In this document: positions 8,812-15,215 of the stretch, piece by piece
Layout: every line of letters starts with the position of its first letter
Position numbering within the stretch: position 1 is the first letter of the stretch
Made by a program: the position numbers and the translations under genes
The notes under the pieces: model-generated
Database searches by the model: none
Told to the model about the DNA's origin: nothing
Seen by the model: only the letters and a program-made list of their open reading frames with translations
Assembly: GCA_004356985.1 (NCBI GenBank)
Contig: SMXQ01000074.1
Span: 1-55,972, forward strand
DNA: 55,972 bases
Direction: 5' to 3'
Origin: Alphaproteobacteria bacterium
GTDB taxonomy: Bacteria; Pseudomonadota; Alphaproteobacteria; SMXQ01

Positions 8812-8979
8812 CGCCCCCAGGGCGCCCGGGCGGAGGGCCGGGCCGATTTGAAAAGATGGACGTGTTTTGCGTGGTCGGCTAGCGTGGATCCCCATGTTAA
8901 ATAAACTTTAATGATAGATGCCCAAGGTATTGAATTCTGCGATTCTGGCATTTGATGTCGCTGGAGAGGAGGGGCGCCG

Positions 8980-9609
8980 ATGGGGGCGAGAGTTAAGCAT
9001 GCGATAGGCGCTCTTTTCGGTTGTGTCCTGGGGTTCGGGGCCAGCGTGACTCTGCAAAATACCGCCGGCCCTTCGACGGCCTCCGCCCCTTCACCGGCCG
9101 GAATGGTCATGGGGATAACCTTCTCCAAGGCCCATGCGGACAGCAAACGGAGGAAAAGAACCCGGGCAAGGAAGGCCGCGGCGCGAAAGGCTGAAGAAAA
9201 GCGCCTTGAGGAAGCCGACAAGAAGCTCGAGGGCATTAGGAGGGCAACCCTGCCCGCCAATTGCGTCAAGGATTTCAATGCATCGGCTACTTATGCAACG
9301 GAAACCTACCTCTGTGGCGGCATGTATTATCAGCGCTACGAGGAAAACGGGGTCACCGGCTTCGAGGGTCATGCCGTCGGCTTGGATCGTGGGGCAATCA
9401 AAAGGGCGCAAGCGCGCCGGGCGGAAGCGCGGCGGGCGAAAGCCAAGATGAAGCTCCAGGTGACCAGGCGGGCCGACCTGCCCGCCAATTGCGTCTATGA
9501 TACCTATGTCTCGGCCGCCACTAACTCCGACGTCTATGCCTGCGGCGGCGTCCGTTACCGGCAATACCAGGAAAAAGGGGTCACCGGCTACGAGGTGGTC
9601 AAACCCTGA
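8980..9609 (+). CDS. Secreted protein with two copies of a ~45-aa two-cysteine repeat; paralogue of 10931..11584
   Basis: N-terminal hydrophobic segment; repeats LPANCVKDF..SATYATETYLCGGMYYQRYEENGVTGFE and LPANCVYDTYVSAATNSDVYACGGVRYRQYQEKGVTGYEVV; RBS gagagg. Confidence 0.8.
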   Translation: MGARVKHAIGALFGCVLGFGASVTLQNTAGPSTASAPSPAGMVMGITFSKAHADSKRRKRTRARKAAARKAEEKRLEEADKKLEGIRRATLPANCVKDFNASATYATETYLCGGMYYQRYEENGVTGFEGHAVGLDRGAIKRAQARRAEARRAKAKMKLQVTRRADLPANCVYDTYVSAATNSDVYACGGVRYRQYQEKGVTGYEVVKP

Positions 9610-9756
9610 ACGCCGCCGCCGCCCGGCCCATGGCGGCCCGGTGTTCGGCGATGACGGCGATCAACTCAACAGGCCCCGGGGGCCTATCGCACCTGTAGAG
9701 CACTCGCCGGCCGAAGGGTTCGATCGGGCCGGATAACGCCCTAAGGAAATGTCCTC

Positions 9757-10560
9757 TCAATTCCTCTTGTGCTTGGCCTGCCATCGCCGCGCCATCTTCT
9801 TGGCTTGGGCAATTTGGGCGGGGTTCATGCGCGCGGCGACCGTGTTGCGGGATTCGCCAGCCCCCTTGTCTCCGCTTGCCGCCGCCAAACTCAGCCACAT
9901 ATGAGCGAAAACATAGTCCTGTGGTACGCCTTGGCCGTTGAGATACAACCCACCGAGGAGGTATTGGGCTTTGGCGTATCCCCGTTCGGCGGCCAAGCGG
10001 TACCACTTCATCGCCGCGGCGTAGTCCTGCGGGACGCCCCGGCCTTGGCCGTGCATGATGCCGAGGGTGGTCAGGGCGGTGGCATCACCCCGATCGGCGG
10101 CCTTGGCAAACCACTTCAACGCCTCGGCGTTATCCTGGGGCACCCCTTGGCCGTCCAGGTACATCCTCCCGAGCCTCGATTGGGCGAAGGCATCACCCTG
10201 CTCGGCGGCCAAGCGGAACCACTGCAACGCCTCGCCATGGTCCTGGAGGACGCCGTGGCCGTTGCGATACATGATGCCGAGGTTGAATTGGGCGCTGGCA
10301 TACCCCTGTTCGGCGGCCTTACGGTACCATTTCACCGCCTGGGTGTCGTTCCGTGGAACACCCCACCCATTGTTGTACATGAAGCCGAGGTTGTATTGGG
10401 CGGCGGCATTTCCCCTTGCGGCAAGGGGCCGCCATTCCCTTAGGGCGGTGGCGTGGTCGCCACGGAGGTAGGCATCTACCCCCTTCTTGGCATCCTGCGC
10501 CGTCGCCGGCACCACCACCGCCAGTCCAAGCACCAAGGCTAAAGCCGTTCGTGTCAACAT
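9757..10560 (-). CDS. Secreted Sel1-repeat (TPR-like) protein
   Basis: Signal peptide MLTRTALALVLGLAVVVPATAQ then successive AEQGxAxAQxxLGxMYxxGxGVPQDxxxAxKWxRLAA repeats. Confidence 0.9.
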   Translation of the reverse strand: MLTRTALALVLGLAVVVPATAQDAKKGVDAYLRGDHATALREWRPLAARGNAAAQYNLGFMYNNGWGVPRNDTQAVKWYRKAAEQGYASAQFNLGIMYRNGHGVLQDHGEALQWFRLAAEQGDAFAQSRLGRMYLDGQGVPQDNAEALKWFAKAADRGDATALTTLGIMHGQGRGVPQDYAAAMKWYRLAAERGYAKAQYLLGGLYLNGQGVPQDYVFAHMWLSLAAASGDKGAGESRNTVAARMNPAQIAQAKKMARRWQAKHKRN

Positions 10561-10930
10561 AGCCGTCCCCTCACTTCGAAGCGCTGAATTTTCACAGCCT
10601 ACGCCCCATCCCCTAAGAATTTCAAGGAAACCCCCCGGCGCGGCTGGGAGACTTCTCATGCGCCGCGTGGCGGGCTCCCAGATCGCAGGGGTGCTGGCCG
10701 ACGGCGGGCGGAGCGGGGAGAGGCGTGGCGGGCGCCGCGCGGCGCCCGGCGGGGCCATCTGCCAAAGGCGCGCGCCAACAGCGCCATTGAAACCACCATG
10801 AATGCCGCTTAGCCTCAGCACCCAGCGATGCTTGGTGCGCCTTTTTCAACGAAGAGCGGGACAATCCAGGTTCGATTGCGATGCCCATTGGCGGTCAATG
10901 GGTATGAAGTCGCTGGAAAGGAGAGCGCCC

Positions 10931-11584
10931 ATGGGGGCGAGGGTAAGGCATGTGTTGGGCGCGCTTTTCGGCTGTGGCCTCGGTTTCGGGGCCAGCGTGA
11001 CTGTGAACGATATTTCCAGTCCTTCCATGGCCTTCGCTCCTTCGCCGGCCGGCGCGGTGCAGGGCAAATTGGTTTTGCGGCTGACCTTCCCCAAGGCCCA
11101 TGCGGACAGCAAACGGAGAAAAAGAACCCGGGCAAGGAGGGCCGCGGCGCGCCGGGCCCAAGCGAAGGCGCGCGAGCTTGCCGATAAAATTCTCCTCGGC
11201 ACCAGGAGCGCCACCCTGCCCGCCAATTGCGTCTACGATTCCTATGCGTCGGTTTCCCATGCTGCCGAAACCTTCATCTGTGGCGGCCTTTATTATCAGC
11301 GCTTCCAGGAAAACGGGGTCACCGGCTTCGAGGGTCATGCCGTGGGCTTGGATCGCGGAGCAATCAAAAGGGCGAAAGCGCGCCGGGCGGAAGCCGAAAA
11401 ACAGCGCCGGGCGAAAGCCCAGAAAAAGTTCCAGACCACCCGGCGCGCCACCCTGTCCGCCAATTGCTTCTACGATTCCTACGCGTCCACTTCCAGTGCC
11501 ACCGACGTTTTCGCCTGCGGCGCCCTCCGTTACCGGCAATACCAGGAAAAAGATGTCACCGGCTATGAGGTGGTCGAACCCTGA
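10931..11584 (+). CDS. Secreted protein with two copies of the two-cysteine repeat; paralogue of 8980..9609
   Basis: MGARVRHVLGALFGCGLGFGASVTV near-identical N-terminus and repeats LPANCVYDSYAS.../LSANCFYDSYAS...; ATG at 10931 with shared upstream DNA. Confidence 0.8.
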   Translation: MGARVRHVLGALFGCGLGFGASVTVNDISSPSMAFAPSPAGAVQGKLVLRLTFPKAHADSKRRKRTRARRAAARRAQAKARELADKILLGTRSATLPANCVYDSYASVSHAAETFICGGLYYQRFQENGVTGFEGHAVGLDRGAIKRAKARRAEAEKQRRAKAQKKFQTTRRATLSANCFYDSYASTSSATDVFACGALRYRQYQEKDVTGYEVVEP

Positions 11585-11668
11585 ACGTCCCCGCGGCCCG
11601 GCCCATTGCGCCCCGGGCCGCCCGGCCGCCATGGCCGCGGCGGAACGTAGCGTCGTCTGGAAAGTGCT

Positions 11669-14414: not shown

Positions 14415-15155
14415 CTATACGGATTCCTTCATGGCGGCACCACGACTCGAGACCAGCGGCGCCCAGCCTTGGGGGCCGAACGCCTCGATCGGCCGGAAGC
14501 GGGATTTGTAATCCATCTTGGCGCAGCCGGAAATCCAGTAGCCGAGATAAACGTAGGCGAGATCGCGGCGCTTCGCCTCGGCGATCAGCCATAGGATCAT
14601 GTGGGTGCCGAGCGCCAGTTTGGCGTTCTCCGGAGCATAAAAGCTGTACACCGCAGACAGCGCGTCGGGCAGGGTGTCGGCCAGCATCACGGCGACCAGT
14701 TCGCCGCCCTCGGCGCGGAATTCGGTGACAGCGGTCTCCACCGGGCTTTCCTCCACCATGGCCCGGTATTCCATGAAGGACATGCGGTCCATGCCGCCGC
14801 CGGGATGGCGTTCGGCCTGATAGCGCGTGAACAGGCCGTATTGCTCGGTGGTTGCCTGGGGCGGGGCGGTGTCCGCCGTCACATGACGGTTGGCCCGCCG
14901 CACGCGGTCCAGCGAACGGCTTGGCGTGAACGCGCTGGCGACCACCCGGACCGGGCGGCAGGCGTCGCAACTGGGACAGGCCGGCCGGTACATGAAACCG
15001 TGGCTGCGCCGGAACCCGGCACGGAGGCCGTCATGGTACAGATCCTTTGCCCCCTTGCCCGTGAGTTCGGTCGCGACGACGCGTTCGTTCCGCCCCTCGA
15101 GATAGGGGCAGGGGCGCAGGGGGGAGGCGTGAAGAGGATGGAGCCTTGGCGACAT
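14415..15155 (-). CDS. bpt: Bacterial leucyl/aspartate-glutamate transferase (arginyltransferase family)
   Basis: CPYLEGRNERVVATEL...GFRRSHGFMYRPACPSCDACRPVRVV; YVYLGYWISGCAKMDYKSRFRPIEAFGPQGW. Confidence 0.9.
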   Translation of the reverse strand: MSPRLHPLHASPLRPCPYLEGRNERVVATELTGKGAKDLYHDGLRAGFRRSHGFMYRPACPSCDACRPVRVVASAFTPSRSLDRVRRANRHVTADTAPPQATTEQYGLFTRYQAERHPGGGMDRMSFMEYRAMVEESPVETAVTEFRAEGGELVAVMLADTLPDALSAVYSFYAPENAKLALGTHMILWLIAEAKRRDLAYVYLGYWISGCAKMDYKSRFRPIEAFGPQGWAPLVSSRGAAMKESV

Positions 15156-15215
15156 GGCCGCATTATGGCGCGAATGGGAAGCCCCCCGCAATCGCGGGTG
15201 CTGTGCGCCGGCCGA

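Follow-up and report, generated by a model that had tools for sequence, protein, structure and literature searches.

Related families

The closest described relative of the repeat analysed here is the unit of DUF6515 (PF20125), a secreted sequence of the form LPxG....GG.YY..xG.YY......YVVV.P that is often repeated two or three times; in the library searched, we found no paper on its function and only one incidental mention of the domain. A second point of comparison is provided by the Cys_rich_FGFR (GLG1) proteins of PF00839, which are likewise small secreted proteins built from Cys repeats, although the repeat is a different one and they are neighbours of members of the wider family described below rather than homologues. 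In the window, by which we mean the entire 55,972-nucleotide stretch of alphaproteobacterial DNA under analysis, two genes encode predicted secreted proteins that each contain two copies of a 46-residue module. This module shares its strand pattern and register with the DUF6515 unit in profile alignment, and it is repeated in similar fashion. It differs, however, in possessing two cysteines in a C-x16-C arrangement, in its helical insertion, in the charged helices that space the repeats and in falling below the Pfam cut-off, whereas the DUF6515 units collected here lack Cys, form a shorter hairpin and abut one another directly.

A duplicated gene pair and its genomic context

Gene A (8980-9609) and gene B (10931-11584), both on the plus strand, encode two-module proteins of 209 and 217 aa, with pI values of about 9.9 and about 10.2 respectively, that are predicted to be exported. 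Both frames are open across these coordinates, start with ATG and are preceded by a Shine-Dalgarno-like site (AGGAGG at 8967-8972, 7 nt before the ATG of gene A; AAGGAG at 10918-10923 for gene B). That they are paralogues, as the initial annotation proposed, is borne out by 72% identity between the proteins and by a duplicated DNA block (approximately 8953-9641 versus 10905-11616, 80-82% identity) that begins about 30 bases before the ATG and ends about 30 bases after the stop codon. The dN/dS ratio is 0.45 for A versus B and 0.29-0.53 for the other whole-gene pairs compared; synonymous change exceeds replacement change per site in all comparisons, which identifies these as protein genes that are being maintained. 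For the two most diverged pairs, dN/dS is lower in the modules than in the linkers and the rest of the protein (0.19 versus 0.37, and 0.19 versus 0.53), and in more recent pairs (A versus B, and B versus the homologue G003a) constraint on the modules is no stronger than on the rest of the protein.

When the 96 nearest genomes were searched, homologues were found in only three, all of the same genus (G001, G002 and G003). Weak matches of a single-protein search outside the genus were Arg-rich or out of frame where inspected, and single-sequence scans of genome contigs and plasmids returned no match. Seven family proteins are known from the genus; five carry two modules, and the two that carry three are found in two sister genomes. 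Evolution through both intragenic and whole-gene duplication, as originally envisaged, is supported by module trees and by gene order in the sister genomes. Modules group largely by their position within the protein, indicating that the internal duplication predates the genus-level splits; as to the timing of the whole-gene duplication relative to the split from G003, 24% of bootstrap trees unite the two window copies. A single copy in G003 lies directly 3' of parC, matching the window, and is followed within about 2 kb by an arginyltransferase homologue. At this parC-side locus the window, in which the arginyltransferase gene occupies 14415-15191, has two copies, which flank a Sel1-repeat gene, and more genes beyond them.

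The Sel1-repeat gene (9757-10560, minus strand; PF08238, 1.2e-59) encodes a secreted protein outside the family; it is oriented opposite to A and B, and we have set it aside as a partner because it has no homologue on the G003 contig that carries the single copy. Other paralogues adjoin a cytochrome oxidase cluster in G003, UbiD-like and amidohydrolase-like genes in G002, and a GST-like gene in both G001 and G002 (all assigned by eye from the translations). The paralogues are flanked by unrelated genes, and so context fixes no partner across the genus. The three-module paralogue of G003 (locus L034, 1197-3002) is situated between the cytochrome oxidase cluster and a gene for a TIGR02281-type secreted aspartic protease, the latter also giving a weak SH3 match. 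In G001 and G002, the gene after the two-module gene has the same orientation and encodes an unnamed secreted Cys-rich protein with three CPKGxF...CYSCPRGY...AC repeats (L037, 10679-12199, and L036, 4506-5282). The G001 protein has a long extra C-terminal region after the repeats, and no protein with this repeat was found in the window genome or in G003.

Modules, spacers and predicted fold

The four window modules lie at 9241-9378 (A1), 9469-9606 (A2), 11207-11344 (B1) and 11444-11581 (B2), all on the plus strand, and were placed by genus alignment and by the profile searches A3 and A5 described below; in addition, an AlphaFold2 model of the full protein B has strands at residues 114-117, 120-127 and 130-137 within B1, and B2 was modelled in isolation. 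Each protein therefore has the two modules, and each module the two invariant cysteines, that had been noted at the outset. Fifteen columns are invariant across the four window modules, while L4, C8, D11, S15 and C25 are kept in all 16 modules of the genus, and the spacing of the cysteines is always C-x16-C.

For the isolated module AlphaFold2 predicts a three-strand β-meander with a mean pLDDT of 89.4, a confident fold that agrees with the proposal of a discrete domain. In this model C8 belongs to an N-terminal segment, a short helix (residues 12-16) sits in the Cys-to-Cys loop, and C25 ends the first of three strands (22-25, 28-35 and 38-44). No Foldseek match to the PDB or to viral models fell below E 0.03, and none of the solved structures that we compared by fold and sequence resembles the module. 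The full protein B is modelled as helix-module-helix-module, with helices at residues 52-89 and 142-170 and low confidence for residues 1-51.

These helices correspond to the Arg/Lys/Ala-rich linkers previously remarked upon, which consist of 67-77% K/R/E/A/Q and carry a net charge of +4 to +10. The first basic helix is encoded at 9139-9240 in gene A, by alignment to helix 52-89 of protein B, and at 11105-11206 in gene B. The inter-module helix comprises 30 aa in gene A (9379-9468, from the model of protein B and from composition) and 33 aa, the conserved length, in gene B (11345-11443, helix 142-170), all on the plus strand. Across the genus the distance from module to module is 79 residues in seven of nine pairs, and 76 and 77 in the remaining two, a spacing that persists although the linker sequences diverge. 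Arg/Lys-rich helices and a pI range of 8.8-10.2 across the family might recall antimicrobial-like or DNA/RNA-binding basic peptides released outside the cell, but the helices are also rich in Glu, and Pfam and NCBIfam scans revealed no toxin, bacteriocin or nucleic-acid-binding family above noise, making this explanation very improbable indeed.

The cysteine pair

Both cysteines occur in 16/16 genus modules and 16/16 modules of the wider family, and neither occurs in 23/23 DUF6515 units, counts that carry some bias, since much of the wider set was recruited with Cys-rich profiles. The Cys-to-Cys loop is 8, 12 or 16 residues long; its length changes in steps of four between two fixed ends, a pattern that would suit a staple between strands at the hairpin base. 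DsbB is encoded in three genomes (G000, G001 and G002) and was not found in G003, which is approximately 91% complete and carries family genes. Taken together, the both-or-neither distribution, the variable loop and the presence of DsbB make a C8-C25 disulfide within each module a likely prediction.

An invariant Cys pair accompanied by an invariant Asp and Ser would also suit a redox-active or metal-holding module, for example in a periplasmic metal or copper chaperone without any polymer binding, and the three-module gene of G003 does stand directly after a cytochrome oxidase cluster. We nevertheless judge this quite improbable, given that the module has no conserved His or Met, that D11 and S15 are not conserved in the wider two-Cys family, and that the other loci have unrelated neighbours. 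C-x16-C is not known as a thioredoxin-like or common metal-binding motif, which also counts against a metal or redox role.

Export

The N-terminal region of gene A (8980-9138, plus strand) encodes a hydrophobic stretch, IGALFGCVLGFGASV, then a spacer and a putative signal-peptidase-I-like site, A-H-A|D, located by hydropathy and an A-x-A scan. That of gene B (10931-11104, plus strand) is a signal or anchor region running to the same A-H-A|D, located by the A-x-A scan and of low confidence in AlphaFold2. This accords with the membrane- or signal-like N-terminus reported in the initial annotation: a single hydrophobic stretch is followed some 25-30 residues on by a conserved A-x-A, whose alanine at -3 is invariant across seven homologues.

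Alignment of the homologues shows that Cys15, inside the hydrophobic stretch, is likewise invariant. Combined with the constant 79-residue period and the helical linkers, this might be taken to mean that the protein is held by an uncleaved inner-membrane anchor, or as a lipoprotein through Cys15, with the repeats serving as a spacer or ruler across the periplasm. We think this rather unlikely. A bacterial lipoprotein is rejected on the lipobox [LVI][ASTVI][GAS]C, since the sequences read ALFGC, ALLGC or ICGC, placing Phe, Leu or Cys at the would-be -2 position, and hydrophobic residues run on after the Cys. The conserved A-x-A downstream of the hydrophobic stretch argues against an anchor, and three-module forms would differ in length, which is awkward for a spacer.

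Membership of a wider two-Cys family and the link to DUF6515

No Pfam or NCBIfam model matches the module in scans of the window proteins, and scan matches to CHASE7, SepX and SVIP were low-complexity noise from the Arg/Ala helices. The module was initially described as unrecognised, and to that extent the description stands; what does not stand is its orphan status, since remote homology connects it to a wider two-Cys family in other Pseudomonadota. Run against 385 genomes of the class, a profile of the 16 genus modules (A3) produced weak matches, of which three were convincing on reading (L039, L043 and L041); L042 and L044-L048 proved to be out of frame or due to chance. The three are predicted exported proteins, each carrying one module that reads LPxxC-x8/12-CxxVxYR...YxVV, and a search started from L039 added a fourth, L076. 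From these four single-module proteins, with genus members excluded, we built a second profile (A5), which recovered all four window modules from the 385 genomes (1.1e-5, 3.5e-5, 0.003 and 0.004); the remaining matches were its own sources, one duplicate fragment and one weaker match. This comes near to a reciprocal and independent test of homology, falling short in that the A5 source proteins had first been noticed via the window profile or through a search that started from it.

Alignment of the genus module to the wider two-Cys family (A7 and A8) with hhalign gave 95.3% for A3-A7 and 96.5%, E 7.6e-10, for A3-A8. The window modules display the family pattern LP-x2-C ... CGG-x-YY ... YxVV with both Cys, and the window proteins have the family's N-terminal layout, in which a hydrophobic stretch, spacer, A-x-A and basic stretch precede the module, as is also the case in L039, L043 and L076. 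Single-module proteins (L039, L043, L076, L129, L131-L136 and L142) resemble those of the window in their signal or TM segment, their LPxxC...CGGxYY sequence and their invariant Cys, and the alphaproteobacterial ones possess an Arg-rich VARRTxRRT stretch between signal/TM and module. They differ in having just one module where the genus proteins have two or three, in a Cys loop of 8 or 12 residues instead of 16, and in lacking fixed-length K/R/E/A spacer helices between modules. A second two-Cys subtype (L127, L142, L130, L135, L136 and L145) comes from outside the class to which the window belongs and has a conserved ATAAAVTAxVAVTSAVxGSxV-like hydrophobic segment directly before the module, at the end of which lies the two-Cys unit; one genome, G465, carries two copies of it about 6 kb apart.

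The PF20125 model gave no match at E <= 10 to the window proteins or the 16 modules, and its curated cut-off of 24.9 bits is not reached by the window modules. Two-Cys relatives also score under this cut-off (L041 17.8, L123 21.8 and L135 23.0 bits), with E-values of 8e-5 and 1.9e-4 for those just below it. When the two-Cys family was aligned by hhalign with 23 DUF6515 units from other genomes (A6), the results were 97.1% for A7-A6 and 97.8% for A8-A6, while the direct comparison of genus module and DUF6515 units (A3-A6) was weak at 29.8%, albeit in register. In column-shuffle controls 0/200 reached the real score for each of A3-A7, A7-A6 and A3-A6. Because the direct alignment is weak, the link between module and DUF6515 runs through the wider two-Cys family, and on sequence comparison we would regard the window module as distantly related to the DUF6515 unit rather than as a member. 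Its novelty is the two-Cys, long-loop, multi-bead form with helical spacers, a lineage-specific elaboration of the uncharacterised DUF6515 kind.

A putative role in the cell envelope

Clues to location come from the wider family. In L041 the module is followed by a PG_binding_1 domain, and single-module genes in three genomes of different families (L039, L043 and L129) are directly upstream, on the same strand, of an open frame for a secreted PF00839 protein with two repeats (1050-1508, 1576-2052 and 1031-1459, respectively). The PF00839 locus beside the single-module gene is the sole one found in two of these genomes and one of two in the third; a search of the window genus found no PF00839 gene. 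The domain fusion and these neighbours, together with high pI and export signals, point to the cell envelope.

On a slender balance of probability, we favour a bead-and-rod protein of the envelope, exported and strongly basic, whose disulfide-stapled modules would bind anionic polymers; this putative role draws on the charge of the protein, on a single domain fusion and on gene neighbours in distant genomes. The protein would cross the inner membrane, whereupon DsbA and DsbB would link the two cysteines on adjacent strands of every module and so staple the hairpin at its base; the charged helical rods would keep the rigid beads in a row at constant distance. Residing in the periplasm or cell envelope, it may bind peptidoglycan, LPS or exopolysaccharide in a structural or tethering capacity. 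Copies are gained in the genus by internal module duplication and whole-gene duplication. A more specific proposal is a genus-specific envelope ruler composed of disulfide-stapled, DUF6515-like beads that charged single helices keep at a fixed 79-residue period, in which the number of modules (two or three) sets the reach and the wider family has secreted Cys-repeat partners; we consider this unlikely.

Through these comparisons an apparent orphan repeat comes to link the unnamed two-Cys family of Pseudomonadota with the uncharacterised DUF6515, and suggests that one small β-meander fold is common to both. The operon-like pairing with PF00839 genes and the fusion with a peptidoglycan-binding domain provide a first genomic hint at function.
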